From Siphonodentalium dalli (lineage: Eukaryota > Mollusca > Scaphopoda > Gadilida > Siphonodentaliidae), in NCBI GenBank assembly GCA_032622095.1, contig CP136067.1:198052052-198116051 (forward strand): 64,000 nt of DNA, in the 5' to 3' direction. Positions 5,179 through 63,429 of the stretch are shown one piece after another. The notes under the pieces were generated by a model. The model was not told the origin of the DNA. It worked only from the letters and a program-made list of their open reading frames with translations, and did not search any database. Positions within the stretch are counted from its first letter, which is position 1, and every line of letters starts with the position of its first letter. Position numbers and translations under genes: made by a program.

Positions 5179-5246
5179 CACGTGATCGATCACGTGCTAT
5201 GCTTCTGTGTACATGTGACAATCACGTGATCGGGCCGATCACGTGA
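5179..5246. promoter_or_regulatory. Two nested E-box palindromes (four CACGTG cores)
   Basis: CACGTGATCGATCACGTG (5179-5196) is a perfect 18-bp palindrome. The stretch 5222-5246 is a 25-bp palindrome with 12-bp arms around a single G, again ending in CACGTG on both sides. CACGTG is the canonical E-box/CLEAR-type core bound by bHLH-ZIP factors. Four cores in 68 bp could form a binding cluster or a cruciform. No adjacent gene start is identifiable. Confidence 0.4.
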
Positions 5247-9308: not shown

Positions 9309-10027
9309 ATACAAACATAGAGCTTATACTGACGAGAACTTTGTTGATTATTGAATATTATGTGTGAAAAACATGAAGTTCATCCATTCTAGGCCGGTGA
9401 GTAATTAGTGATCATCGGGAAGTAGGGTGTAATCCGCCGTGGCCACATTGACCAAACTTGCCATCCGCTTAAGAGCCAGCCCGCTGCAATGCGCACCTGG
9501 CAACCCACCACAAAGTAGTCATAAAAAGCAAATCGCCACATATTCGCGTGCAACGGATAAAGGGTGGCTGCCCCGATGAATTGGTGCTAAAACAGTGATG
9601 GAGCTCCTAACAAGGTGGGCTCTCGCCTCCGGGAAACCTAGCGGAATGCCAAGTCAAATGTCTCAATCCAAATATACCTGTGAAAAATAAGAATGGAATG
9701 ACGAAAACCTTAATCTTCAAACATAGCCCTAGAAACTAGTCAGAGGGTTATAGTGGTCCATTTCAAGATAACTGTCCTCGAGCCTTTCGACATTAAATTG
9801 ATATAGTCAGCTTTGGCAGTCAATGAATTCTCATTCCTGGTGGGCAGGGTCAATGGAAAGTGCATATTACCTGGATAAGTCTTCATAGCATTTTTGCAAA
9901 CGTCATGCATAAGCCTAACACAGCTCTGGTTAACAACGCATCTCACATGAACACAGACAATCATTTCAAGACAGCATCCCCAGACTGGAATAGAATGCAC
10001 ACATAGCAAACACATAGATGGTGCTGA
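9309..10027. other. Unique spacer, unrecognised, containing unit B
   Basis: GC-moderate sequence at about 9420-9640 resembles the 5' region of a retroelement in texture only. Unit B, 36 bp from 'gttatagtgg' to 'ctcgag', lies at 9747-9782. The minus-strand frame at 9740-10015 (91 aa, Cys/His-rich) is not recognised. Confidence 0.4.
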
Positions 10028-10570: not shown

Positions 10571-11013
10571 AAGCCTGCAAATAGCGTGTCTGTCATTTGC
10601 AGAATGATGTCCACAGAAGGTGAATTTAGTGACGCTATCCCGCATAGCGGGCTAGCATCACTAAATCCACCCTCTGTGAACCTCATTCTGCCTAGGCCTC
10701 AACTGCTATGTCAGACCTAGGATCAGATTGAAGTTCCCCAGTTGATGTTGGTGATGTTCACCCATTGGGCACCTCAATTATGAATTTTATCTTCTGAAAA
10801 TTAGGGAATATAGAAACGTCCTAGATGGGAGATGTAACTAAAAACAATGTTAATTTAATACTATAGATACTTCCCAGAAGATGAGGCCTAAGCAGAATGA
10901 GGTCCACAGAGGGTGAATTTATTAATGCTAGCCCGCTACGCGGAATAGCGTCACTAAATTCACCCTCTGGGGACCTCATTCTGCAAATGACAGACACACT
11001 ATTTACAGGCTTG
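10571..11013. mobile_element. Non-autonomous TIR element with two internal hairpins (MULE-like?)
   Basis: Terminal inverted repeats read (C)AAGCCTGYAAATAGYGTG and continue into TGTCTGTCATTTGCAG. Inside are two long imperfect hairpins, 10609-10691 and 10892-10984, with ~45-bp stems from GCAGAATGA to CCCGC. The second is roughly the reverse complement of the first. Flanks CTGGTGGGT and CTGATGGGT form a 9-bp near-perfect target duplication, the size typical of Mutator-like elements. There is no coding capacity. Superfamily assignment is inferred from target-site length only. Confidence 0.7.
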
Positions 11014-15104: not shown

Positions 15105-15205
15105 ACAGCACATGCATCCCTAAATGAGAACAATTTGCAACGAATACTTACAAAGCACAACACAAATAACTGTTTGTTACCCGTAAATTACAAATATGTA
15201 TTTAA

Positions 15206-15608
15206 CCCTTTACCCAACAGCTTCATTCAGAACGGCCCTGTGCCAATGCATTCTCTTATATATGCGAGTCGACCATAGGTCGCCTCGCATATATAAGAGA
15301 ATGCATTGGCTTAACACAATAAAAATTAAAAAATGGTTAAAGAATGTAAGAAAAAATGTTAAAAAGTGTTAAAATAAGATTTGTTTTAGGCCAATGTATT
15401 CTCTTATATATATGCGAGGCGACCTATGGTCGACTCGCATATATAAGAGAATGCATCGGCACAGGGCTAACTGTAACTATCACAATGTGGTCAAGGAGCC
15501 GGTTCCAATGATATCCATATTTGTATGGTTCTATTGAGACAGACCGAAGATATTTTAGGCTGTTGAAGCTTTATTTGGCCGGTTTTGGCCGGTTTGTTGG
15601 GTAAAGTG
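15206..15608 (-). mobile_element. piggyBac-type MITE with two hairpins, copy 1
   Basis: The element starts CCCTTTACCCAACA directly after TTAA (15202-15205) and ends TGTTGGGTAAAGTG before TTAA (15609-15612). TTAA target duplication with CCCTTT ends is diagnostic of the piggyBac superfamily. Two 69-71-nt hairpins (15242-15310 and 15390-15460) lie inside. The subterminal segment 'ccaatgatatccatatttg' is in reverse orientation relative to the copies at 42.3 and 61.9 kb. The right end has one mismatch in the terminal GGG. Confidence 0.85.
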
Positions 15609-15734
15609 TTAAAACAAAATATATATATATATATGCATGGACCTGAATTATTGTGTTCTACAACTATTATTAAACCAATCAAAGACAGGCGTTTTTGTTT
15701 TATCAAATTAAAATACCAAGTTTGAACGTGACGT

Positions 15735-18700
15735 ACACCCAGACTATTATATTTATTATATGAGAGAACTAAAGGTAAGTCATGTGGTGTGGGGTGAATG
15801 GGTACCATATTAACTCCCAGACTATTATATGTATTATATGAGAGAACTAAAGGTAAGTCATGTGGTGTGGGGTGAATGGGTACCATATTAACTCCCAGAC
15901 TATTATATTTATTATATGAGAGAACTAAAGGTAAGTCATGTGGTGTGGGGTGAATGGGTACCATATTAACTCCCAGACTATTATATGTATTATATGAGAG
16001 AACTAAAGGTAAGTCATGTGGTGTGGGGTGAATGGGTACCATATTAACTCCCAGACTATTATATGTATTATATGAGAGAACTAAAGGTAAGTCATGTGGT
16101 GTGGGGTGAATGGGTACCATATTAACTCCCAGACTATTATATTTATTATATGAGAGAACTAAAGGTAAGTCATGTGGTGTGGGGTGAATGGGTACCATAT
16201 TAACTCCCAGACTATTATATGTATTATATGAGAGAACTAAAGGTAAGTCATGTGGTGTGGGGTGAATGGGTACCATATTAACTCCCAGACTATTATATGT
16301 ATTATATGAGAGAACTAAAGGTAAGTCATGTGGTGTGGGGTGAATGGGTACCATATTAACTCCCAGACTATTATATTTATTATATGAGAGAACTAAAGGT
16401 AAGTCATGTGGTGTGGGGTGAATGGGTACCATATTAACTCCCAGACTATTATATTTATTATATGAGAGAACTAAAGGTAAGTCATGTGGTGTGGGGTGAA
16501 TGGGTACCATATTAACTCCCAGACTATTATATTTATTATATGAGAGAACTAAAGGTAAGTCATGTGGTGTGGGGTGAATGGGTACCATATTAACTCCCAG
16601 ACTATTATATTTATTATATGAGAGAACTAAAGGTAAGTCATGTGGTGTGGGGTGAATGGGTACCATATTAACTCCCAGACTATTATATTTATTATATGAG
16701 AGAACTAAAGGTAAGTCATGTGGTGTGGGGTGAATGGGTACCATATTAACTCCCAGACTATTATATTTATTATATGAGAGAACTAAAGGTAAGTCATGTG
16801 GTGTGGGGTGAATGGGTACCATATTAACTCCCAGACTATTATATGTATTATATGAGAGAACTAAAGGTAAGTCATGTGGTGTGGGGTGAATGGGTACCAT
16901 ATTAACTCCCAGACTATTATATTTATTATATGAGAGAACTAAAGGTAAGTCATGTGGTGTGGGGTGAATGGGTACCATATTAACTCCCAGACTATTATAT
17001 GTATTATATGAGAGAACTAAAGGTAAGTCATGTGGTGTGGGGTGAATGGGTACCATATTAACTCCCAGACTATTATATTTATTATATGAGAGAACTAAAG
17101 GTAAGTCATGTGGTGTGGGGTGAATGGGTACCATATTAACTCCCAGACTATTATATTTATTATATGAGAGAACTAAAGGTAAGTCATGTGGTGTGGGGTG
17201 AATGGGTACCATATTAACTCCCAGACTATTATATTTATTATATGAGAGAACTAAAGGTAAGTCATGTGGTGTGGGGTGAATGGGTACCATATTAACTCCC
17301 AGACTATTATATGTATTATATGAGAGAACTAAAGGTAAGTCATGTGGTGTGGGGTGAATGGGTACCATATTAACTCCCAGACTATTATATGTATTATATG
17401 AGAGAACTAAAGGTAAGTCATGTGGTGTGGGGTGAATGGGTACCATATTAACTCCCAGACTATTATATGTATTATATGAGAGAACTAAAGGTAAGTCATG
17501 TGGTGTGGGGTGAATGGGTACCATATTAACTCCCAGACTATTATATGTATTATATGAGAGAACTAAAGGTAAGTCATGTGGTGTGGGGTGAATGGGTACC
17601 ATATTAACTCCCAGACTATTATATGTATTATATGAGAGAACTAAAGGTAAGTCATGTGGTGTGGGGTGAATGGGTACCATATTAACTCCCAGACTATTAT
17701 ATTTATTATATGAGAGAACTAAAGGTAAGTCATGTGGTGTGGTGAGCATGGGTACCATATTAACTCCCAGACTATTATATTTATTATATGAGAGAACTAA
17801 AGGTAAGTCATGTGGTGTGGTGAGCATGGGTACCATATTAACTCCCAGACTATTATATGTATTATATGAGAGAACTAAAGGTAAGTCATGTGGTGTGGGG
17901 TGAATGGGTACCATATTAACTCCCAGACTATTATATGTATTATATGAGAGAACTAAAGGTAAGTCATGTGGTGTGGGGTGAATGGGTACCATATTAACTC
18001 CCAGACTATTATATGTATTATATGAGAGAACTAAAGGTAAGTCATGTGGTGTGGGGTGAATGGGTACCATATTAACTCCCAGACTATTATATTTATTATA
18101 TGAGAGAACTAAAGGTAAGTCATGTGGTGTGGGGTGAATGGGTACCATATTAACTCCCAGACTATTATATTTATTATATGAGAGAACTAAAGGTAAGTCA
18201 CGTGGTGTGGGGTGAATGGGTACCATATTAACTCCCAGACTATTATAATTATTATATGAGAGAACTAAAGGTAAGTCATGTGGTGTGGGGTGAATGGGTA
18301 CCATATTAACTCCCAGACTATTATATGTATTATATGAGAGAACTAAAGGTAAGTCATGTGGTGTGGGGTGAATGGGTACCATATTAACTCCCAGACTATT
18401 ATATGTATTATATGAGAGAACTAAAGGTAAGTCATGTGGTGTGGGGTGAATGGGTACCATATTAACTCCCAGACTATTATATTTATTATATGAGAGAACT
18501 AAAGGTAAGTCATGTGGTGTGGGGTGAATGGGTACCATATTAACTCCCAGACTATTATATTTATTATATGAGAGAACTAAAGGTAAGTCATGTGGTGTGG
18601 TGAGCATGGGTACCATATTAACTCCCAGAATATTATATGTATTATATGAGAGAACTAAAGGTAAGTCATGTGGTGTGGGGTGAATGGGTACCATATTAAC

Positions 18701-21700
18701 TCCCAGACTATTATATGTATTATATGAGAGAACTAAAGGTAAGTCATGTGGTGTGGGGTGAATGGGTACCATATTAACTCCCAGACTATTATATTTATTA
18801 TATGAGAGAACTAAAGGTAAGTCATGTGGTGTGGGGTGAATGGGTACCATATTAACTCCCAGACTATTATATTTATTATATGAGAGAACTAAAGGTAAGT
18901 CATGTGGTGTGGGGTGAATGGGTACCATATTAACTCCCAGACTATTATATTTATTATATGAGAGAACTAAAGGTAAGTCATGTGGTGTGGTGAGCATGGG
19001 TACCATATTAACTCCCAGACTATTATATTTATTATATGAGAGAACTAAAGGTAAGTCATGTGGTGTGGGGTGAATGGGTACCATATTAACTCCCAGACTA
19101 TTATATTTATTATATGAGAGAACTAAAGGTAAGTCATGTGGTGTGGGGTGAATGGGTACCATATTAACTCCCAGACTATTATATTTATTATATGAGAGAA
19201 CTAAAGGTAAGTCATGTGGTGTGGGGTGAATGGGTACCATATTAACTCCCAGACTATTATATTTATTATATGAGAGAACTAAAGGTAAGTTATGTGGTGT
19301 GGGGTGAATGGGTACTATATTAACTCCCAGACTATTATATGTATTATATGAGAGAACTAAAGGTAAGTCATGTGGTGTGGTGAGCATGGGTACCATATTA
19401 ACTCCCAGACTATTATATGTATTATATGAGAGAACTAAAGGTAAGTCATGTGGTGTGGTGAGCATGGGTACCATATCAACTCCCAGACTATTATATTTAT
19501 TATATGAGAGAACTAAAGGTAAGTTATGTGGTGTGGGGTGAATGGGTACCATATTAACTCCCAGACTATTATATTTATTATATGAGAGAACTAAAGGTAA
19601 GTTATGTGGTGTGGGGTGAATGGGTACCATATTAACTCCCAGACTATTATATTTTATTATATGAGAGAACTAAAGGTAAGTCATGTGGTGTGGGGTGAAT
19701 GGGTACCATATTAACTCCCAGACTATTATATGTATTATATGAGAGAACTAAAGGTAAGTCATGTGGTGTGGGGTGAATGGGTACCATATTAACTCCCAGA
19801 CTATTATATTTATTATATGAGAGAACTAAAGGTAAGTCATGTGGTGTGGGGTGAATGGGTACCATATTAACTCCCAGACTATTATATTTATTATATGAGA
19901 GAACTAAAGGTAAGTCATGTGGTGTGGGGTGAATGGGTACCATATTAACTCCCAGACTATTATATTTATTATATGAGAGAACTAAAGGTAAGTTATGTGG
20001 TGTGGTGAGCATGGGTACCATATTAACTCCCAGACTATTATATTTTATTATATGAGAGAACTAAATGTAAGTCATGTGGTGTGGGGTGTATGGGTACCAT
20101 ATTAACTCCCAGACTATTATATTTATTATATGAGAGAACTAAAGGTAAGTCATGTGGTGTGGGGTGAATGGGTACCATATTAACTCCCAGACTATTATAT
20201 TTATTATATGAGAGAACTAAAGGTAAGTCATGTGGTGTGGGGTGAATGGGTACCATATTAACTCCCAGACTATTATATTTTATTATATGAGAGAACTAAA
20301 GGTAAGTCATGTGGTGTGGGGTGTATGGGTACCATATTAACTCCCAGACTATTATATTTATTATATGAGAGAACTAAAGGTAAGTCATGTGGTGTGGGGT
20401 GAATGGGTACCATATTAACTCCCAGACTATTATATTTATTATATGAGAGAACTAAAGGTAAGTCATGTGGTGTGGGGTGTATGGGTACCATATTAACTCC
20501 CAGACTATTATATTTATTATATGAGAGAACTAAAGGTAAGTCATGTGGTGGGGTGAATGGGTACCATATTAACTCCCAGACTATTATATTTATTATATGA
20601 GAGAACTAAAGGTAAGTCATGTGGTGTGGGGTGAATGGGTACCATATTAACTCCCAGACTATTATATTTATTATATGAGAGAACTAAAGGTAAGTCATGT
20701 GGTGTGGGGTGAATGGGTACCCTATCAACTCCCAGACTATTATATTTATTATATGAGAGAACTAAAGGTAAGTCATGTGGTGTGGTGAGCATGGGTACCA
20801 TATCAACTCCCAGACTATTATATTTTATTATATGAGAGAACTAAAGGTAAGTCATGTGGTGTGGGGTGAATGGGTACCATATTAACTCCCAGACTATTAT
20901 ATTTATTATATGAGAGAACTAAAGGTAAGTCATGTGGTGTGGGGTGAATGGGTACCCTATCAACTCCCAGACTATTATATTTATTATATGAGAGAACTAA
21001 AGGTAAGTCATGTGGTGTGGGGTGAATGGGTACCCTATCAACTCCCAGACTATTATATTTATTATATGAGAGAACTAAAGGTAAGTTATGTGGTGTGGGG
21101 TGAATGGGTACCATATTAACTCCCAGACTATTATATTTATTATATGAGAGAACTAAAGGTAAGTCATGTGGTGTGGGGTGAATGGGTACCATATTAACTC
21201 CCAGACTATTATATTTATTATATGAGAGAACTAAAGGTAAGTCATGTGGTGTGGGGTGAATGGGTACCATATTAACTCCCAGACTATTATATGTATTATA
21301 TGAGAGAACTAAAGGTAAGTCATGTGGTGTGGGGTGAATGGGTTCCATATTAACTCCCAGACTATTATATTTATTATATGAGAGAACTAAAGGTAAGTCA
21401 TGTGGTGTGGGGTGAATGGGTACCCTATCAACTCCCAGACTATTATATTTATTATATGAGAGAACTAAAGGTAAGTTATGTGGTGTGGGGTGAATGGGTA
21501 CCATATTAACTCCCAGACTATTATATTTATTATATGAGAGAACTAAAGGTAAGTCATGTGGTGTGGGGTGAATGGGTACCATATTAACTCCCAGACTATT
21601 ATATTTATTATATGAGAGAACTAAAGGTAAGTCATGTGGTGTGGGGTGAATGGGTACCATATTAACTCCCAGACTAGTATATGTATTATATGAGAGAACT

Positions 21701-22269
21701 AAAGGTAAGTCATGTGGCGTGGGGTGAATGGGTACCCTATCAACTCCCAGACTATTATATTTATTATATGAGAGAACTAAAGGTAAGTTATGTGGTGTGG
21801 GGTGAATGGGTACCATATTAACTCCCAGACTATTATATTTATTATATGAGAGAACTAAAGGTAAGTCATGTGGTGTGGGGTGAATGGGTACCCTATCAAC
21901 TCCCAGACTATTATATTTTATTATATGAGAGAACTAAAGGTAAGTCATGTGGTGTGGGGTGAATGGGTACCATATTAACTCCCAGACTATTATATTTATT
22001 ATATGAGAGAACTAAAGGTAAGTTATGTGGTGTGGGGTGAATGGGTACCATATTAACTCCCAGACTATCATATTTATTATATGAGAGAACTAAAGGTAAG
22101 TCATGTGGTGTGGGGTGAATGGGTACCATATTAACTCCCAGACTATTATATTTATTATATGAGAGAACTAAAGGTAAGTTATGTGGTGTGGTGAGCATGG
22201 GTACCATATCAACTCCCAGACTATTATATTTTATTATATGAGAGAACTAAAGTAAGTCAACTCCCAGAC
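15735..22269 (+). repeat. 78-bp satellite, main block (about 83 units)
   Basis: The unit contains 'tattaactcccagactatta', 'tatgagagaactaaaggtaa', 'gtcatgtggtgtggggtgaa' and 'tgggtacca'. Variants include TATTTATT versus TATGTATT, GGGGTGAAT versus GGTGAGCAT, GTCATGTGG versus GTTATGTGG, ACCATATTAAC versus ACCCTATCAAC, and a 79-bp form with one extra T. Because 78 is 26 codons, the minus strand stays open for 1379 codons (19630 to 15491) until 79-bp units appear. Variant changes alter amino acids freely, so I see no sign of coding constraint. Confidence 0.97.
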
Positions 22270-22462
22270 GTAGTGCCGTTTGTGTGGTTTGGAGAGTGGA
22301 GGGGCACTAAGACTGATAATAATGTTTTAGTCGCCAATATCCACAAAAGAAAAATATATATAGTCATCTCCATATTTCGTTTGAATGTGTTTTTGGCGTT
22401 GTAATTTCATAACCTCGACAATAGGTGACCGAATTAAGTCACATGAACAATTATATCTTCAC
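22270..22462 (+). repeat. Helitron-flank interlude 1 inside the satellite
   Basis: 193 bp from 'gtagtgccgtttgtgtgg' to 'atatcttcacaact' that is not satellite. It is Helitron core and tail sequence, recurring at 23584-23776 (offset 1314) and 26067-26259 (offset 3797). Confidence 0.9.
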
Positions 22463-23583
22463 AACTAAAGGTAAGTTATGTGGTGTGGTGAGCATGGGTA
22501 CCATATTAACTCCCAGACTATTATATTTTATTATATGAGAGAACTAAAGGTAAGTCATGTGGTGTGGGGTGTATGGGTACCATATTAACTCCCAGACTAT
22601 TATATTTATTATATGAGAGAACTAAAGGTAAGTCATGTGGTGTGGGGTGAATGGGTACCATATTAACTCCCAGACTATTATATTTATTATATGAGAGAAC
22701 TAAAGGTAAGTCATGTGGTGTGGGGTGAATGGGTACCATATTAACTCCCAGACTATTATATTTTATTATATGAGAGAACTAAAGGTAAGTCATGTGGTGT
22801 GGGGTGTATGGGTACCATATTAACTCCCAGACTATTATATTTATTATATGAGAGAACTAAAGGTAAGTCATGTGGTGTGGGGTGAATGGGTACCATATTA
22901 ACTCCCAGACTATTATATTTATTATATGAGAGAACTAAAGGTAAGTCATGTGGTGTGGGGTGAATGGGTACCATATTAACTCCCAGACTAGTATATGTAT
23001 TATATGAGAGAACTAAAGGTAAGTCATGTGGCGTGGGGTGAATGGGTACCCTATCAACTCCCAGACTATTATATTTATTATATGAGAGAACTAAAGGTAA
23101 GTTATGTGGTGTGGGGTGAATGGGTACCATATTAACTCCCAGACTATTATATTTATTATATGAGAGAACTAAAGGTAAGTCATGTGGTGTGGGGTGAATG
23201 GGTACCCTATCAACTCCCAGACTATTATATTTTATTATATGAGAGAACTAAAGGTAAGTCATGTGGTGTGGGGTGAATGGGTACCATATTAACTCCCAGA
23301 CTATTATATTTATTATATGAGAGAACTAAAGGTAAGTTATGTGGTGTGGGGTGAATGGGTACCATATTAACTCCCAGACTATCATATTTATTATATGAGA
23401 GAACTAAAGGTAAGTCATGTGGTGTGGGGTGAATGGGTACCATATTAACTCCCAGACTATTATATTTATTATATGAGAGAACTAAAGGTAAGTTATGTGG
23501 TGTGGTGAGCATGGGTACCATATCAACTCCCATACTATTATATTTTATTATATGAGAGAACTAAAGTAAGTCAACTCCCAGAC
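22463..23583 (+). repeat. 78-bp satellite, second block (about 14 units)
   Basis: The block resumes in mid-unit (AACT then aaaggtaagttatg) after interlude 1 and ends at 'actcccagac' before interlude 2. Its variant order matches that before interlude 1, showing a 1314-bp tandem duplication. Confidence 0.95.
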
Positions 23584-23776
23584 GTAGTGCCGTTTGTGTG
23601 GTTTGGAGAGTGGAGGGGCACTAAGACTGATAATAATGTTTTAGTCGCCAATATCCACAAAAGAAAAATATATATAGTCATCTCCATATTTCGTTTGAAT
23701 GTGTTTTTGGCGTTGTAATTTCATAACCTCGACAATAGGTGACCGAATTAAGTCACATGAACAATTATATCTTCAC
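23584..23776 (+). repeat. Helitron-flank interlude 2 inside the satellite
   Basis: Same sequence and same two junctions as interlude 1. Confidence 0.9.
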
Positions 23777-26066
23777 AACTAAAGGTAAGTTATGTGGTGT
23801 GGTGAGCATGGGTACCATATTAACTCCCAGACTATTATATTTTATTATATGAGAGAACTAAAGGTAAGTCATGTGGTGTGGGGTGTATGGGTACCATATT
23901 AACTCCCAGACTATTATATTTATTATATGAGAGAACTAAAGGTAAGTCATGTGGTGTGGGGTGAATGGGTACCATATTAACTCCCAGACTATTATATTTA
24001 TTATATGAGAGAACTAAAGGTAAGTCATGTGGTGTGGGGTGAATGGGTACCATATTAACTCCCAGACTATTATATTTTATTATATGAGAGAACTAAAGGT
24101 AAGTCATGTGGTGTGGGGTGTATGGGTACCATATTAACTCCCAGACTATTATATTTATTATATGAGAGAACTAAAGGTAAGTCATGTGGTGTGGGGTGAA
24201 TGGGTACCATATTAACTCCCAGACTATTATATTTATTATATGAGAGAACTAAAGGTAAGTCATGTGGTGTGGGGTGTATGGGTACCATATTAACTCCCAG
24301 ACTATTATATTTATTATATGATAGAACTAAAGGTAAGTCATGTGGTGGGGTGAATGGGTACCATATTAACTCCCAGACTATTATATTTATTATATGAGAG
24401 AACTAAAGGTAAGTCATGTGGTGTGGGGTGAATGGGTACCATATTAACTCCCAGACTATTATATTTATTATATGAGAGAACTAAAGGTAAGTCATGTGGT
24501 GTGGGGTGAATGGGTACCCTATCAACTCCCAGACTATTATATTTATTATATGAGAGAACTAAAGGTAAGTCATGTGGTGTGGTGAGCATGGGTACCATAT
24601 CAACTCCCAGACTATTATATTTTATTATATGAGAGAACTAAAGGTAAGTCATGTGGTGTGGGGTGAATGGGTACCATATTAACTCCCAGACTATTATATT
24701 TATTATATGAGAGAACTAAAGGTAAGTCATGTGGTGTGGGGTGAATGGGTACCCTATCAACTCCCAGACTATTATATTTATTATATGAGAGAACTAAAGG
24801 TAAGTCATGTGGTGTGGGGTGAATGGGTACCCTATCAACTCCCAGACTATTATATTTATTATATGAGAGAACTAAAGGTAAGTTATGTGGTGTGGGGTGA
24901 ATGGGTACCATATTAACTCCCAGACTATTATATTTATTATATGAGAGAACTAAAGGTAAGTCATGTGGTGTGGGGTGAATGGGTACCATATTAACTCCCA
25001 GACTATTATATTTATTATATGAGAGAACTAAAGGTAAGTCATGTGGTGTGGGGTGAATGGGTACCATATTAACTCCCAGACTATTATATGTATTATATGA
25101 GAGAACTAAAGGTAAGTCATGTGGTGTGGGGTGAATGGGTACCATATTAACTCCCAGACTATTATATTTATTATATGAGAGAACTAAAGGTAAGTCATGT
25201 GGTGTGGGGTGAATGGGTACCCTATCAACTCCCAGACTATTATATTTATTATATGAGAGAACTAAAGGTAAGTTATGTGGTGTGGGGTGAATGGGTACCA
25301 TATTAACTCCCAGACTATTATATTTATTATATGAGAGAACTAAAGGTAAGTCATGTGGTGTGGGGTGAATGGGTACCATATTAACTCCCAGACTATTATA
25401 TTTATTATATGAGAGAACTAAAGGTAAGTCATGTGGTGTGGGGTGAATGGGTACCATATTAACTCCCAGACTAGTATATGTATTATATGAGAGAACTAAA
25501 GGTAAGTCATGTGGCGTGGGGTGAATGGGTACCCTATCAACTCCCAGACTATTATATTTATTATATGAGAGAACTAAAGGTAAGTTATGTGGTGTGGGGT
25601 GAATGGGTACCATATTAACTCCCAGACTATTATATTTATTATATGAGAGAACTAAAGGTAAGTCATGTGGTGTGGGGTGAATGGGTACCCTATCAACTCC
25701 CAGACTATTATATTTTATTATATGAGAGAACTAAAGGTAAGTCATGTGGTATGGGGTGAATGGGTACCATATTAACTCCCAGACTATTATATTTATTATA
25801 TGAGAGAACTAAAGGTAAGTTATGTGGTGTGGGGTGAATGGGTACCATATTAACTCCCAGACTATTATATTTATTATATGAGAGAACTAAAGGTAAGTCA
25901 TGTGGTGTGGGGTGAATGGGTACCATATTAACTCCCAGACTATTATATTTATTATATGAGAGAACTAAAGGTAAGTTATGTGGTGTGGTGAGCATGGGTA
26001 CCATATCAACTCCCAGACTATTATATTTTATTATATGAGAGAACTAAAGTAAGTCAACTCCCAGAC
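23777..26066 (+). repeat. 78-bp satellite, third block (about 29 units)
   Basis: Unit order and variants match 19980-22269 at a constant offset of 3797 bp with only a few changes (for example ggttccat versus ggtaccat, gagagaac versus gatagaac). Confidence 0.95.
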
Positions 26067-34357: not shown

Positions 34358-34756
34358 ATAATACCATTCGAACGGATCATGCGCGAATACCAATACAGAT
34401 ACAGAGATACAGATTATCAGCACATGTAGTATGTGTGTTATTTATTTTTTTCAGGTGTTCTTTTTAGATCCTATTTCGTGTTATTACAGAAGTTGGAATA
34501 ACTTAGAAGAACCAGAAACGGAAATAGAGTAACTGTAATACTGACTATCAAGCTTAAATGGTGTGAGACTACATATTTGGAGATAAAAGGGGTTGGGTGG
34601 GGTTGCATGAAATTGGAAAAATATTTGTTCTGGGGTGGTGGGTACCTAAGAGCCGGAAAAAGTTTTTTTCAGCCTACTGTCATGTCACTTTGTTCTGACC
34701 CCCTTGTCTAAGGGTGGATACACTCATGCATGTAATGTCTGTATGTAAAATACAAA

Positions 34757-36280
34757 TTGCACACTTGCGGATTCAGAGGAAACTTATTTCGATTGATGCG
34801 CGAACTTCTGATCAATGTAACCTGTTCCATTCGTCAAAACAACGTTTTTTCTAGGTGGTTTGATGTGCGACAGGGAGCCAGGCAGGGGGGAATCCTCTCG
34901 CCTTTGTACTATATGATATACGTTGACGAGTTGATACATACCCTTGCAAACTCGCCGTTTGGCTTAAACATGCTGGGTGTAAATTGTACGTCTCCGACAC
35001 ATGCAGACGATATGGTTCTGTTGTCTCTCAGTAAATCTGGTTTATCAGCACTATGTGATATTTGCTACGATTACAGTAACAAATGGCGGTATCGATATAA
35101 CCCAAATAAATGCGCTGTAGTGGTATTTAATGAAACTAAATCCGAATTTTCGCATCAGGATCGACTTTGGAACCTTGGTACCTCAGATGTCAAAGAAACC
35201 ACTAACATAGCTCATTTGGGCATTTATTTTGATAAGTATGACTTTAATGGCATATTCACTGAGCATATATGCGAGAAGACTCGTAGCACGTTTATGATGC
35301 TCAACAACGCCGGCCTTTACCCGGGTGGTATGACCCCAACAAGTTGCTCGTTGATATATTCGTCGGTGGTCATACCTAAAGGGCTGTACGGGCCTGAACT
35401 TCTCTGGAATTTGAACCAAAAACACGTTGATCGCCTGGAACGAACACACAGATTCTGTTTAAAGTATTACCAGGGCCTTCACCGTCGTACAAAAACGGTT
35501 ATTGCGCAAGGATTAGTCGGAACCTCGTCTATGGTGTCACTTATCGAAAAACGTAAAATGTCATTCTTCGGTTCTTTGTGCAACTTAAAATCTTCTAAAA
35601 CTGTGAAACAAGTATTTCTCACGCGCTTATATAAATACATCGTTGATACTACATGCTCATCATCAAGTTACATGTCTGACATCATTGACACTCTTAACAA
35701 ATATGACCTGACCGAAGCTCTTGAGAACTACATCGAAAATTCAATATTCCCTAAGAAATCAACATGGAAATGTGCCATAATCGAATCATGGTCAAAAGTT
35801 AATAGAGAATATTGGGACATGAGCGTAAATGAGGATACTCGACTTGCTAGGTTCTCTGCCGTCCATCCAACGTTATGTATGTCCCGGCTATCGGAAAATT
35901 GTCGCATATATCCAGCCCATAAAAAATCATATCTACTTATTGCACGCCTTATTTGTATCCTGGAAACAAATGAGGAAACCTGCGTATTATGTGACAACAA
36001 ACATACAGATCTTGTAAAACATGCCTTAATTGAATGTTCTTCCATTTGCGACGATCGAAATACCTTTGAATTCGAGCTACTGAACTTGTTTGATGTAGAT
36101 ATTTATATGCAGTATGACAAACTGGATGTAGAATCCAAAACGCGCGTTCTACTAACAGGTCTACATGAAAATATATATTGTTCGCCCGAAGAAGAAAATA
36201 AACTAATAGACTTTTTTGTGAACAAAGCTGCATTCCTCTGGAGAGTATATGTTGATCGACTGACGCCTAGTCCTGACTAG
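34757..36280 (+). CDS. Non-LTR retrotransposon reverse transcriptase, 5'-truncated (frame open)
   Basis: The frame of 507 codons opens at a TTG, not an ATG, because the copy is cut at its 5' side inside the reverse-transcriptase domain. Visible parts are the thumb-proximal fingers and palm (GFRGNLFRLMRE, residues 5-16), the RQGGILSPL block (42-50), and the catalytic motif C as HADDM (82-86, with ADD aspartates present and His replacing the usual Tyr/Phe). WRYRYNPNKCAVVVF follows, and a C-terminal Cys-x2-Cys-x9-His-x4-Cys (409-427) is likely a nucleic-acid-binding knuckle. The apurinic endonuclease, palm motif A and any ORF1 are absent. The protein would copy its own RNA at a nicked target. 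No internal stop is seen, suggesting fairly recent insertion. The family looks like the Jockey/CR1-related group common in molluscs and cnidarians; exact clade is uncertain. Confidence 0.9.
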   Translation: MHTCGFRGNLFRLMRELLINVTCSIRQNNVFSRWFDVRQGARQGGILSPLYYMIYVDELIHTLANSPFGLNMLGVNCTSPTHADDMVLLSLSKSGLSALCDICYDYSNKWRYRYNPNKCAVVVFNETKSEFSHQDRLWNLGTSDVKETTNIAHLGIYFDKYDFNGIFTEHICEKTRSTFMMLNNAGLYPGGMTPTSCSLIYSSVVIPKGLYGPELLWNLNQKHVDRLERTHRFCLKYYQGLHRRTKTVIAQGLVGTSSMVSLIEKRKMSFFGSLCNLKSSKTVKQVFLTRLYKYIVDTTCSSSSYMSDIIDTLNKYDLTEALENYIENSIFPKKSTWKCAIIESWSKVNREYWDMSVNEDTRLARFSAVHPTLCMSRLSENCRIYPAHKKSYLLIARLICILETNEETCVLCDNKHTDLVKHALIECSSICDDRNTFEFELLNLFDVDIYMQYDKLDVESKTRVLLTGLHENIYCSPEEENKLIDFFVNKAAFLWRVYVDRLTPSPD

Positions 36281-42287: not shown

Positions 42288-42291
42288 TTAA

Positions 42292-42743
42292 CCCTTTACC
42301 CAACAAAACGCCCAGAAAAATAGCCCAAATGAAGCTGCAACAGCCTAAATTATCTTGGGTCTGTCTCAATAGAACCATGCAAATATGGATATCATTGGAA
42401 CCGGCTCATTGACAACATTGTGATAGTTACAGTTATGCCATGTGCCAATGCATTCTCTTATATATGCGAGTCGAACATATGTCGCCTCGCATATATAAGA
42501 GAATGCATTGGCCTAAACACAATTAACTTTTTACCATTTTTTTCTTACATTCTTTAACAATTTTTTAATTTTGTTTTACATTTTTTAACAATTTTTATAA
42601 TATTTTTCTACATTCTTTGACACTTTTATTATTTTTAATATGTGTTAAGCCAATGCATTCTCTTATATATGCGAGGCGACCTATGGTCGACTCGCATATA
42701 TAAGAGAATGCATTGGCACAGGGCCGTTTTGTTGGGTAAAGGG
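42292..42743 (+). mobile_element. piggyBac-type MITE with two hairpins, copy 2
   Basis: TTAA (42288-42291) precedes CCCTTTACCCAACA and TGTTGGGTAAAGGG precedes TTAA (42744-42747), so ends and target duplication are intact. Hairpins lie at 42444-42512 and 42649-42717, in inverted orientation to each other. The spacer between them is AT-rich. No transposase is present. This is the cleanest copy in the window. Confidence 0.93.
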
Positions 42744-43329
42744 TTAACCGATCTGGGATATGTTAAAATATTCATTATATTGTTCGCGTACTCTCGTTTA
42801 TAATTCTCAAATAAGCGTTCCTTAATGTTTCGCGTTCCTTAATGTTTCGCGTTCCTTACTGTTTCGCGTTCCTTAATATTTCGCATGTCTCAAGAGGTCA
42901 CAGATCGAGGAGTCCTATACGCGACAGTAATACGATTCTTCCAACTTTATATTTTCAAACTTCCAAGGTTTTCCAGTTTGCTGTTTTTCGATTTGACCAC
43001 AGGAGCTTGTAAGTTGATCAATAACTGCCTTAATTAGGCTAATTAACAATTTTTGGCGCAGCCTTATAAGATCACACAAGGAATGAAACGTGCGAAAATA
43101 GATGACATGTTTACAACCGTCCGATTCCAACAAAAATAAGTGTATCAGACAAAACCGTTGCATATTTCAGTACATGAGATGTTACAGTGAATGAAGGAAG
43201 ATGTAATTGCTGTCTGTTATCGTCTTCTTCGACGTATTTCAGCACTTATCTGTCAAACCATAAAACCATAAAACTGCATTTTTCGCCGGCAAGTCACGAT
43301 CGGATGAAGCAGTAATGTACTCTAATTTC

Positions 43330-43735
43330 TTGTACATTGACGGAACAGGAATCGGAGACGGATCATAAATATCATAAAAATGTTTTTCCTTTGTTATGTT
43401 AACAAAAGCAAAAAAAGTTACAGAACCTGGCTTTTGTTTAGATCCGGATAGGGTAAACATAATGAGCATTATTTGTTAATGTTTTCCTGATATGGAAATA
43501 CTAAAGAGCGTTTATATCATTTTTGTGTGATTAACCAATAGAATTGCGCTGCGTTATGAACACAGAGGAAAAAGTTCTGTAACAAGAGCAGGCTCTTGTT
43601 TACGTCTCGACGACAATATACTATTTACGCGCTGATTATGTTTGGCATATGAGCGGAACTGTATAATTGTTTGTGTTCCTTCTGTTGATTGCGAGTTGAA
43701 CAAATATGAGTATTTCTGCAACGAACGCCGCCCGT
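43330..43735 (+). repeat. Unclassified interspersed repeat K, copy 1
   Basis: Text such as 'gttatgttaacaaaagc', 'cctgatatggaaatactaaa', 'gagcgtttat' and terminal 'cgcccgtgcctttaa' aligns with 62244-62728. A shorter piece lies near 50030-50100 ('ccatccgtgcctttaa'). Family unknown. Confidence 0.6.
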
Positions 43736-43762
43736 GCCTTTAACAAATACTGGTCACAGTGT

Positions 43763-49810: not shown

Positions 49811-50124
49811 CTAGGCTACCCCCGACAATATACTGCTTTACCTTATTATGTATTTCTGCCATTGTATAATTCATGTATATTGTAAATAAATTATCCTATC
49901 CTATAATCCTATCCAACAACATGATTTGGCTTTGGTTTACATAACACAAGGTACGAACTTGACAACAACATAACATTTACGCGATATTTATGATCGGTAT
50001 AAGAATAAAAGTATGTCTATATTTTAATATTCGCTCTGTTTATGCCGGATGTGACTATTTTAACAGCAACACCCACCGCGAAGACCATCCGTGCCTTTAA
50101 TTAGCGGGCCAAACAACGTCATAC

Positions 50125-52595: not shown

Positions 52596-52984
52596 GAGAC
52601 CTTTCGCAAAATCACGAATACGATTACGGATATGAAAATATCCTGCCAATATACGGCCAAAATTCGGTCTTTACGCACGGTGGTTCTTATGTGAGACGCC
52701 ATCCAACGCAGTTTAATTATGTGAAGATGTGTGAAGAATGTGCCACAGGTCCTGCTTGGGGACGCTCTAGCATTATCCGCGTGGTGTATTACACACGGAT
52801 AAGAACATATGGGACTTGAAATAAACACATTACTTTTCCCATCAAATGTATGTGTAACTGAATATAGTGGGGCATATGCCGTCTCACCAATTACCCACCG
52901 TATGTAAATTGTGTTGGTGTCAACCTTACTATAAGACAATACATCCTATCCGTAATCGTAATTGTGATTTTTGCGAAATGTCTC
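52596..52984. mobile_element. Mariner-like MITE
   Basis: About 38-bp inverted ends, GAGACMTTTCGCAAAA then TCACRAWTACGATTACGGAT, are flanked by TA on both sides (52594-52595 and 52985-52986), the Tc1/mariner target duplication. A central hairpin TTATCCG...CGGATAA lies at about 52773-52803. The minus-strand 118-codon frame across it is probably accidental. Confidence 0.75.
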
Positions 52985-56088: not shown

Positions 56089-57426
56089 TATAATATAATA
56101 TGTGTTAAGGACAAAATAGTTGAACAATGTGGATGATGAAAAATTGCATTTGGGTCATCTTGATCACTCACCCACCCCCACACGTTCTCGGAAAACTGGT
56201 TGACCCCCACGCAATAATATATTGGCTGACTTTTCTAAGCAAAACGATGCATTTCAGAAGGGAAATCGACAACATCCGATGGCAATGGAATTGACCTGCC
56301 AATGAAAGCCGGAGATCTGTTGAAGATACATGTGTATATTTGCACCATTGTTCATGTGGGTAAATATATATGGCACATTGACGGTTTTGATGAAACATCG
56401 TGTGTTTTCCATATATATTGTAACTTACATAATTCATATCTAACCGCTATAAACAGCCCGTACATTTTTCGTGATTTGTCAAAGCGCACGGGTTATTCGT
56501 CTGATTATGAGATTAGGTAGCGGTAACACGCCTCCTATATCCTTGCAATTGAACAATTGTGGCCCACATGTAACGCAATCGACCAAATCCACGTCGTCCC
56601 AGCGGTGGAGTAAAACTTGGTTTTACTACTAAAACCAAGTTCAAACTGGTAGTTTAAACTAGGTCTAAACTGTTGATGCCGATTAGGACCCGTGTGTTTT
56701 CCATATATATTGTAACACACATGTCCAATGGAAAACATTGGGTAGGGAAAGTTTACACGCGATTAAACAATTTTATCCTATCCTATCTGAAAGTTGCAAG
56801 ATATAAAGCACACATACAGTCCAATATAGTGACGTCACTACTAAACATCGTGCCATGCATGTGATTGGGATGAAACGCTTCTAATAATGATATATCAACA
56901 ATAAGAAATGTATTTATTCACGGTTTCCTCTTTAAAAATCAAGCTGTCGCCCCACACATATTGCCTAATCCATTTATAGTCAGTGAGATGTTGGTTGATG
57001 TTGCACCCCATGCAGGACTCAACTTCACCCCAAATATTTCCTTTCAGGTTCTCTGCTAGCTCTTCTTATATCTGCGTATAATACAACTTGTTTTAGGTAG
57101 ATAATCTGCTTAGAATTGCCTCGTTTTCAGTCGATGATGTGCTGAAAATGGGAACATTTTAGTAACAATATCGACACATAATGAAGCGACTTTAAGCAGA
57201 TTATGTGCGGACAATGACACATATCAGCTAACTCGCGAACTTCCAGGTGTACGCTCTTTAAAGTGTGTTTCCACTGTGGACCGCGCCATAAAACGAAATA
57301 ACGGGCAGGAGTCCATTATCTGCTTATTTCAGAATAAAATAATCACATTATGTACCTATTTGTCACTATAGGTCGATTATGTGCGTATTTATGCGAGGAT
57401 ATGTTGAGTCTCCAGACACATATGAC
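56089..57426. other. No gene; small palindrome and short repeat
   Basis: 56614-56641 is a perfect 12-bp-arm hairpin (AACTTGGTTTTA, loop CTAC). 'tgtgttttccatatatattg' occurs at about 56400 and 56694 in direct orientation. Otherwise nothing is recognised. Confidence 0.5.
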
Positions 57427-61381: not shown

Positions 61382-61843
61382 TGTGACCCGCCATATCAAA
61401 TCCAGTCGTAAGTCGGGATTTTGTTTACCCTGTGACAATGCATTCTCTTATATATGCGAGTCGACCATAGGTCGCCTCGCATATATATAAGAGAATGCAC
61501 TGGCCTAACAATTTTTTATCTTTTTTTTTAACTAAATGTTTCTTACAATTTTTAGGACATAAAATAAAAAAACATCCATTACCCTGCAGGGAGCCCACAC
61601 ATATATAGAAGCATATAGAAGAGTGTCGTCTGCTCATGTTTGTCTGGGGCTCTGTATGGGTGAAATTATAAAATTGTTAAAGAATACAAGAAAACATTAT
61701 TAAAATTGTAAAAAATTGTTAGGCCAATGCATTCTCTTATATATGCGAGGCGACCTATGGTCGACTCGCATATATAAGAGAATGCATTGGCACAGGGTAA
61801 AAAAAATCCTGACTTACGACTGGATTTGATATGGCGGGTCACA
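61382..61843. mobile_element. Double-hairpin MITE of a different TIR family
   Basis: Ends TGTGACCCGCCATATCAAAT then CCAGTCGTAAGTC are inverted over about 50 bp, with no TTAA. Inside are hairpins 61434-61504 and 61723-61791, almost identical to those of the piggyBac-type MITEs. No convincing target duplication was found, so the superfamily is open. Confidence 0.75.
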
Positions 61844-61951
61844 TTTTGTCTGATTTAACTGTTTTTCCAAATGGCGGTATAATCTTATCAAAGATAGCTG
61901 ACTCGACGCTTATCGCGTCATTTATGTTGCGAATTAGTGAATATTAGTTAA

Positions 61952-62828
61952 CCCTTTACCCACAAACCGGCCAAATAAAGCTTCAACAGCCTAAAATATC
62001 TTTGGTCTGTCTCCATAACACCATACAAATATGGATATCATTGGAACCGGTTCATTGACCACATTGTGATGGTTACGGTTATGCCCTGTGTCAATGCATT
62101 GTCTTATATACGCGAGTCAACCATAGGTCGCCTCGCATATATAAGAGAATGCATTGGCCTAAAAGAAATCTTTTTGAACACTTTTTACCATTTTTTCTTA
62201 CATTCTTTAACAATTTTTATAATATTTTTCTACATTCTTTGACCTTGGCGGTGGGTATCCTGTGAAAATATCGCCACCCGTCAAAAACCACCACAAACAG
62301 AAAGAACATCAAAATGTAGATAGACTTTGTCCGTATACAAATAATAAATATCGCATAAACAGTATGTTATGGTCATATGTTTGACCATTGTTATGTAAAC
62401 AAAGGCCTAAAAAGTTACTTTTCTGGTGTTTGTTTATATTATGATGGTAAACATTAAGAGCGTTATTTGTTGGTGAATACCTGATATGGAACTAATAAAG
62501 AGCGTTTATGCCATTTGTGTGTGATTAGCCAGTAGCATTGTGCTGTCTTCTGTAACACAATCAGGCTCTTGCTTAGGTAAAATATAGTAGGTATTTATGA
62601 TAACATGCTGTTTACGCGATGGTCATGGTATATATGAACGGAACTGTATGCGTTTTAATGTTTTTCTGTTTACGGTGTTTGGAACAAATATGAATATTTT
62701 CGACAATTAAGGCCGCACGTGCCTTTAATATGTGTTAAACCAATGCATTCTCTTATATATGCGAGGCGACCTATGTTCGACTCGAATATATAAAAGAATG
62801 CATTGGCACAGGGCCGTTGGGTAAAGGG
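61952..62828 (+). mobile_element. piggyBac-type MITE with two hairpins, copy 3, with nested insert
   Basis: TTAA (61948-61951) precedes CCCTTTACCC and GTTGGGTAAAGGG precedes TTAA (62829-62832). Hairpins lie at 62089-62158 and 62739-62807. Compared with copy 2, about 485 bp of repeat K (62244-62728) replaces a short AT-rich spacer segment between the hairpins. Confidence 0.88.
62244..62728 (+). repeat. Repeat K, copy 2, nested in a piggyBac-type MITE
   Basis: Aligns with 43330-43735 from 'gttatgtaaacaaaggc' to 'cgcacgtgcctttaa'. The left part, 'cttggcggtgggtatcctg', extends beyond what I can align. Confidence 0.6.
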
Positions 62829-63105
62829 TTAAGTAATTAATTCATACAGTAAAGCCATAACAACTCTACCGATGCTTATATATATATGTAGATGATACAA
62901 TAAGGTGAGGATTTTACTCTGAGATTTGAGATGAGGAACATTCATCCAAATTCAAGACAGCGGCAAAAATGCAGATTATAAATTGACAAATCGCAGAATT
63001 CCCTCATGTTCGCATTGATCAGGGGGCGTTATTGTCACTGTTGTCACTTTCGTAAGTATAGAATGTTTCTAAAAGTGGAACGATCAACACATGAACGTTG
63101 TGACA

Positions 63106-63375
63106 TTAATTTAGGTATTCTATTGTGTCACGGTGGGATCATGGCGTACATTAATTTAGGTATTCTATTGTGTCACGGTGGGATCATGGCGTACATTAAT
63201 TTAGGTATTCTATTGTGTCACGATGGGATCATGGCGTACATTAATTTAGGTATTCTATTGTGTCACGATGGGATCATGGCGTACATTAATTTAGGTATTC
63301 TATTGTGTCACGATGGGATCATGGCGTACATTAATTTAGGTATTCTATTGTGTCACGGTGGGATCATGGAGTACA
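63106..63375 (+). repeat. 45-bp tandem array, six units
   Basis: The unit runs from 'ttaatttaggtattctattg' through 'tgtcacRgtgggatcatggc' to 'gtaca'. Six nearly identical units start at 63106 and every 45 bp after. Flanks show an older, diverged larger repeat: 'gtaagtatagaatgtttct' at 63051 resembles 'ggaagtatatcttttct' at 63401. The overlapping 128-codon frame is an artefact of the 15-codon unit. Confidence 0.92.
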
Positions 63376-63429
63376 TAATTGGGTCACAATAGTTACTGTC
63401 GGAAGTATATCTTTTCTAAAAGTGGGACG

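Follow-up and report, generated by a model that had tools for sequence, protein, structure and literature searches.

The closest described parallel to the elements reported here is provided by the CMITEs of the coral Acropora, in which six end types surround one conserved internal region, with TTAA targets throughout, and of which one family arose by nested insertion of an element (PMC2872659). How MITEs acquire new ends is a question that this paper leaves open. Ginger elements have TGTNR ends, with inverted repeats of ~40 to 270 bp in Ginger1 and targets of CCGG/CCGT (Ginger1) or RTATAY (Ginger2) (PMC2836005). Mutator/Foldback Tm1 elements combine composite inverted repeats with 9-bp duplications, and one group of them carries histone-hairpin motifs (PMC3169594). 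The REP palindromes of bacteria (RAYT transposases) are 20 to 40 bp long, with an unpaired motif, GTAG or CGTC, on one of their ends (PMC3733652). The long terminal repeats of KolobokP have inverted ends of their own but are direct repeats, and KolobokP was set aside as a parallel for this reason (PMC9587614). Satellite junctions are the subject of a further report, in which pearl MITEs are mentioned (PMC5139131). For all of these papers, our statements apply to the extracts that were available.

When GCCAATGCATTCTC was searched with up to 2 mismatches in the 64-kb window, by which we mean the whole stretch of DNA analyzed, 17 matches were found versus 0.42 expected, and none of 100 shuffles reached 17. 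Sixteen of these matches are the arms of eight near-identical hairpins of 69 to 71 nt, which form four inverted pairs as the original prediction had described; the match at 9819 belongs to no hairpin. Six of the eight hairpins are 69 nt long, and the other two (15390 to 15460 and 61434 to 61504) reach 71 nt through an additional AT. The stem consists of 27 pairs, a T·C mismatch, and 5 further pairs closed by a 3-nt loop, so the long stem that had been predicted is present, albeit with a total of 32 pairs instead of the 31 given. In three of the eight hairpins, the inner stem of 5 pairs is interrupted.

The T·C mismatch lies six pairs from the ATA loop in all eight hairpins, and the T is always on the outward arm (checked pair by pair in six of the eight). 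Mismatch and loop do flip in step with hairpin orientation (8 of 8), as had been noticed, but they are not needed as evidence for a module: any sequence located within a terminal inverted repeat changes orientation together with the arm that contains it, and the orientation lock needs no separate module. Given that overwriting would erase the mismatch, its retention indicates that neither half of any hairpin has been overwritten by the other half. The idea that the outer hairpin arm mutates faster than the inner one was rejected (10 versus 4 substitutions in a by-eye count, P = 0.18).

Three of the hairpin pairs lie, as predicted, in elements with TTAA and CCCTTT ends. E1 (15202 to 15612, minus strand) is reversed relative to the other two; its hairpins are at 15242 to 15310 (plus strand, short-flank side) and at 15390 to 15460 (minus strand, long-flank side, with the additional AT). 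E2 (42288 to 42747, plus strand) has TTAA on both sides, a 26-nt terminal inverted repeat at 96%, and hairpins at 42444 to 42512 (left, plus strand) and 42649 to 42717 (right, minus strand). E3 (61948 to 62832, plus strand) has its hairpins at 62090 to 62158 (left, plus strand) and 62739 to 62807 (right, minus strand), and its core contains a nested repeat. TTAA flanks both CCCTTTACCCA ends in all three elements, as is characteristic of piggyBac-type MITEs, and the ends read CCCTTT in five of six cases and CACTTT in the sixth, in keeping with the CC[C/T]T terminal motif given in the extract of PMC2872659. The elements are asymmetric: 135 to 149 bp separate the left TTAA (included) from the core, and the right end is short. 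Their left flanks are pairwise 90 to 93% alike (gaps left out), and within the window the flanks of E1 to E3 match only one another.

The repeat nested in the E3 core (approximately 62244 to 62729, no strand assigned) has two parts and is related to 43380 to 43743 (72%) and to 49925 to 50083 (71%). Read from the sequence, its right junction lies at a TTAA, a TTAA is present at the same place in E2, and its left end looks deleted. The right junction and the copy at 49925 to 50083 suggest TTAA-AGGCACG ends, which in turn suggest a purine-start TTAA element of the Kolobok type, judged by the description in the extract of PMC9587614. The spacer between the hairpins is a 32-bp tandem repeat at 42523 to 42636 in E2 (3.6 copies) and at 62177 to 62240 in E3 (2.0 copies), and the length of this spacer may change by slippage. 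A separate 45-bp tandem repeat (63103 to 63380, 6.2 copies, 98%) lies close to E3 and E4.

The fourth hairpin pair was correctly predicted to lie near E3 in an element with other ends and without TTAA. This element, E4 (61382 to 61843, no strand assigned), is a 462-bp foldback element in which 46-bp TGTGACCCGCC ends enclose the hairpin core, and a gap of 104 bp separates it from E3. Its left and right outer ends (61382 to 61427, plus strand, and 61798 to 61843, minus strand; TGTGACCCGCCATATC...) agree with each other at 44 of 46 positions. The left hairpin (61434 to 61504, plus strand) has the additional AT, and the right hairpin (61723 to 61791, minus strand) is identical at 69 of 69 positions to a hairpin in E1 and to another in E2. 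The inverted arms (61382 to 61492 and 61733 to 61843) are 95% complementary over 111 nt, and a single DNA strand of the entire element is predicted to fold back on itself at −173.1 kcal/mol (z = −28.4).

No TTAA is present at the borders of E4, where the flanks read ATATT and TTTTG. Thus, while E1 to E3 resemble piggyBac-type TTAA MITEs (TTAA on both sides and CCCTTT at five of six ends), E4 differs from them in having neither a TTAA nor a CCC end. The best candidates for a target duplication at E4 are 4 bp long (ATTT or TTTG) and not above chance (empirical P = 0.128); since the same test gave P values of 0.128, 0.031, and 0.054 for E1, E2, and E3, respectively, its power is low where one 4-bp site is concerned. 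The ends of E4 fit the Ginger pattern, in that TGTGA conforms to TGTNR and the inverted repeat, whether taken as the 46-bp outer end or as the 111-nt arm, falls within the ~40 to 270 bp of Ginger1 (PMC2836005, extract). In contrast, its flanks are not CCGG/CCGT or RTATAY, as in Ginger1 and Ginger2 (PMC2836005, extract), and it contains no transposase; because the targets do not fit, we did not file E4 as a Ginger element.

Two other origins for E4 were rejected. The first, which the original prediction had itself named as part of the outcome that would count against it, was that E4 is a piggyBac-type copy interrupted by a later insertion; within the window this is ruled out by outer ends that agree with one another at 44 of 46 positions but with none of the left flanks of E1 to E3. 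The second was derivation from the present neighbor E3, each of whose hairpins has four substitutions that are absent from both E4 hairpins.

The sequence common to E1 to E4 is larger than the hairpins alone and runs from CCCTGTG through a hairpin, part of an AT-rich spacer, and the second hairpin to CACAGGG. With hairpins included, the right arm of E4 aligns with the left arms of E1 to E3 over 140 to 145 bp (~85%) and with their right arms over 81 to 106 bp (89 to 94%), and the left arm of E4 aligns with their left arms over 130 to 136 bp (80 to 83%) and with their right arms over 83 to 91 bp (89 to 94%). Outside the hairpins, the right inner spacer of E4 is of the left-arm type of E1 to E3 (z = 6 to 8, with 0 of 300 shuffles reaching the score in all three comparisons), whereas its scores against the right-arm spacers of E1, E2, and E3 were reached by 129, 85, and 80 of 300 shuffles, respectively (the E3 piece being 14 nt). 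The left inner spacer of E4 resembles left spacers weakly (39, 0, and 18 of 300 shuffles reached the score for E1, E2, and E3) and is unlike right spacers (113, 50, and 274 of 300). Since one hairpin each in E1, E2, and E4 is identical over 69 of 69 positions, the link between these elements is real and not old.

On both sides, clear homology ends at, or within 5 bases of, CCCTGTG and CACAGGG. The outer 46 bp of E4 showed no similarity above shuffles to the left flanks of E1 to E3 in 12 comparisons (P = 0.39 to 0.99), and the prediction of one core in elements with unrelated ends is borne out by these values together with core alignments of 80 to 94%. An internal region that is more alike between families (80 to 94%) than the ends, which are at the level of shuffles, is also the pattern of end turnover seen in CMITEs. 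Like E1 to E4, CMITEs combine different terminal repeats with one internal region, and CCCTTT left ends occur in five of their six families (PMC2872659, extract). Unlike E1 to E4, they are 96 to 108 bp long, and the extract mentions no paired hairpins (PMC2872659). Since all CMITE end types are at TTAA and E4 has none, this precedent, as far as the extract describes it, does not extend to elements that switch from one target to another (PMC2872659). Within the window, nothing matched the 60-bp CMITE internal consensus to a meaningful degree (the best match was 12 nt long, E = 0.15).

We consider it probable that E1 to E4 are chimeric, nonautonomous foldback MITEs whose core acquired new ends. 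They would be short elements, built on one core and moved by the transposase of another element. E1 to E3 would be mobilized at TTAA by a piggyBac-type transposase acting through the CCCTTTACCCA ends, and the ends of E4 would presumably be recognized by a different transposase. A core-carrying element would have lost its ends and gained others, either by nested insertion and deletion or by an ectopic template switch in one arm. Since long inverted arms can pair, copying from arm to arm could then put the same end on both sides, and the inverted arrangement of the two hairpins would be preserved. Relative to the arm in which it lies, each of the eight hairpins has the same orientation, which is expected within inherited inverted repeats and counts for replacement of the ends.

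Several observations weigh against this reading. The left spacer of E4 is only weakly of the left-arm type, and the window showed neither a host element lacking the core nor one that is half converted. The additional AT is common to the left (but not the right) hairpin of E4 and to the long-flank, left-arm hairpin of E1, which conflicts with spacers that tie the right arm of E4 to left arms; as a mark of lineage, we set the AT aside as weak, since it lies in an AT run. E4 and E5 (described below) are each present as one copy in the window; E4, the sole copy with its ends there, is thus only presumably mobile, and its candidate target duplication is not above chance. The possibility that outer ends mirror the sequence on the inner side of their own hairpin was rejected (six tests, P = 0.06 to 0.99).

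Homology that stops so near CCCTGTG and CACAGGG could also mean that the core itself is mobile and parasitizes transposons, having entered a piggyBac-type MITE on one occasion and a palindromic TGTGACCCGCC element on another. If the core is removed, the flanks of E1 to E3 are plausible as a short TTAA MITE, and the TA on each side of the core in E4 is readable as a 2-bp duplication. However, no target-site duplication was seen by eye at the core borders of E1 to E3, and the TTTA and TAAA at the borders in E4 are an inverted match that is explained by the terminal repeat. The core is at the same place in E1 to E3, which argues for one event rather than three, and E4 would require insertion at the exact center of a palindrome. 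Three of six alignments between E4 and left arms run 5 bases past CCCTGTG, and the homology with left arms continues from the hairpin into the spacer. With no clear border duplication by eye and the bare TA of E4 as the sole candidate, we found no support for the suggestion in the original prediction that the cassette is a parasite of transposons, and we regard a mobile core as unlikely.

Searches of prokaryotic and viral contigs returned no relatives. Exact patterns for the hairpin (two patterns), the E4 end, the E1-to-E3 flank, and the E5 stem each gave 0 matches in viral contigs, and the exact hairpin pattern gave 0 matches in prokaryotic genome contigs. Short end and hairpin strings retrieved, among the literature matches listed, only papers with unrelated titles, and strings of E5 retrieved none.

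A hairpin scan of the window (arm score of at least 13, loop of at most 12) found ten hairpins, namely, the eight of E1 to E4 and two of a further element, E5, whereas Markov-random sequences (3 runs) gave arm scores of at most 12. E5 (10571 to 11012, no strand assigned) has the same architecture in unrelated sequence: its inverted arms of 137 nt (10571 to 10707 and 10876 to 11012, 90%) each contain one 93-nt hairpin, and its ends differ from those of E1 to E4. The hairpin tips read T-CCCGC-ATA-GCGGG-C on the left (10599 to 10691, plus strand) and, in its own orientation, T-TCCGC-GTA-GCGGG-C on the right (10892 to 10984, minus strand). In both hairpins, the sixth pair from the 3-nt loop (ATA or GTA) is thus a T·C mismatch with the T on the outer arm, and they share a second mismatch, C·A at pair 11. 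The 45-pair stems of E5 are not similar to those of the E1-to-E4 hairpins (P = 0.97 direct and 0.39 reversed). Four comparisons of E5 ends (P = 0.027 for one end against the E2 left flank and 0.42 to 0.83 for the others) and four of its interior (P = 0.05 reversed against E4 and 0.26 to 0.51 for the others) revealed nothing convincing.

A candidate 10-bp duplication, CTGGTGGGTA/CTGATGGGTA, flanks this single copy and agrees at 9 of 10 bases after a one-base shift of both borders (empirical P = 0.0175). E5 resembles Tm1 in its long inverted repeats and may do so in its candidate 9- to 10-bp duplication, but E5 is one copy, and the histone-hairpin of Tm1 is, by its name, a different hairpin (PMC3169594, extract). 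A degenerate E5 stem pattern had 11 matches in genome contigs and 11 in viral contigs; since the best nearby inverted partner of all 22 agreed at only 10 to 12 of 19 bases, these matches were taken as chance.

The tip shared by the two hairpin families raises the possibility that the hairpin pair is a module recognized by its structure, with the folded tip being read by a recombinase or helper and various transposon ends being added around it. For the REP/REPIN hairpins of bacteria, recognition as folded hairpin DNA has been proposed. All ten hairpins that reach the arm score of 13, across two families with unrelated stems, agree in their mismatch, type of loop, and orientation, and TCNNNCATAGNNNGC occurs exactly 8 times in the window, always within these hairpins (seven in E1 to E4 and one in E5), versus 0.24 expected. 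When the window was scanned for 3-nt loops that have a mismatch of any kind at pair six and a stem beyond the mismatch, 9 sites were returned; each of them lies in one of these hairpins and is T·C, while ten random sequences gave 0 to 2 sites each. In a simple model with two fixed mismatches and given the 3-nt loop, the coincidence in position, type, and loop has a probability of ~1.25e-4, although the likeness was noticed after the fact and the true surprise is smaller than this value suggests.

Against such a module, there are only two families, one of which is a single element, and the inner stem is broken in three of the eight E1-to-E4 hairpins. With one mismatch allowed, TCNNNCATAGNNNGC is barely above chance (16 versus 8.4 expected). 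A looser scan added three short hairpins that lack the tip (5222 to 5246, 56363 to 56419, and 56614 to 56641), and a diverged 104-bp palindrome at 57101 to 57204 (50-nt arms, 72%, 4-nt loop), found among the 25 of 45 inverted repeats that were listed and possibly an old palindromic MITE, also lacks it. No protein candidate was found. The resemblance to REP sequences is that these palindromes, too, are often oppositely oriented and keep a fixed feature while family sequences differ; in contrast, they are prokaryotic and 20 to 40 bp long, whereas the hairpins described here are 69 to 93 nt and lie within transposon arms (PMC3733652, extract). On balance, recognition of the hairpin pair by structure appears quite improbable. 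We would be slightly more skeptical of its broadest form, which casts fixed-tip hairpin pairs as the transferable core of several unrelated transposon families of the source genome, with a recognized tip and exchangeable stems and ends, and hence as a eukaryotic counterpart of REPINs in TTAA, TGTGA, and 9- to 10-bp-target elements.

The original prediction also raised the possibility that the hairpins give rise to miRNA- or siRNA-like transcripts; such transcripts might be kept by selection. The stems are indeed stable, with the three intact hairpins folding at −54.3 kcal/mol as RNA, and permissive Rfam searches returned miRNA families far below threshold. The highest-scoring of these families was mir-3927, which reached 38.6 bits (E = 5.2e-05 when 1.6 kb was searched) against a gathering score of 90. 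However, no Rfam family reached its gathering score in the whole window. In an alignment of the eight hairpins (6 distinct sequences), 20 of the 32 pairs are invariant, 4 have variation confined to one of the two bases, and the only departures at the other 8 are broken pairs; none changed on both sides, so the compensatory changes expected of an miRNA precursor are absent from this alignment. Hairpins differed less than flanks between E1 and E2 (4 of 138 versus 13 of 145 positions, P = 0.04) but not between E1 and E3 (P = 1.0) or between E2 and E3 (P = 0.52), and greater conservation of the hairpins in general was rejected, as it held for only one of three element pairs. Moreover, the whole element is an inverted repeat, and any read-through transcript would be double stranded anyway. 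These few sequences, which afford little power, give no indication that a hairpin RNA has been selected for; this part of the prediction remained unsupported, and we consider it very unlikely.

Elsewhere in the window, whose sequence appears eukaryotic and probably metazoan, a Pfam scan of two open frames identified a reverse transcriptase domain at 34736 to 36277 and gave no match for the other frame. A 78-bp unit is repeated in tandem over 10.3 kb (15738 to 26056, 132.6 copies, 93% matches); this array has a strong GC skew over part of its length, and a 1,392-aa open frame on the minus strand (15491 to 19669) is mostly this repeat read through. A 364-bp stretch at 52608 to 52971, among the 25 of 45 inverted repeats listed, has 28-nt inverted ends (89%) and no internal hairpin in our scans.

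Replacement of the ends around one core, the reading that we favor for E1 to E4, bears on how MITEs are grouped. Classification of MITEs relies on ends and targets, and a core that persisted across target types would mean that families defined by ends hide one lineage. Since E4 lacks TTAA, the present case goes beyond CMITEs, across types of both end and target, and E1 to E4 would be a concrete case for testing how MITEs gain new ends. Taken together with E5, these elements suggest that cores of this kind can outlive a change of transposon ends. If the tip in an element with an unrelated stem were to recur genome-wide, it would suggest that what is recognized is the fold of the DNA and not its sequence.
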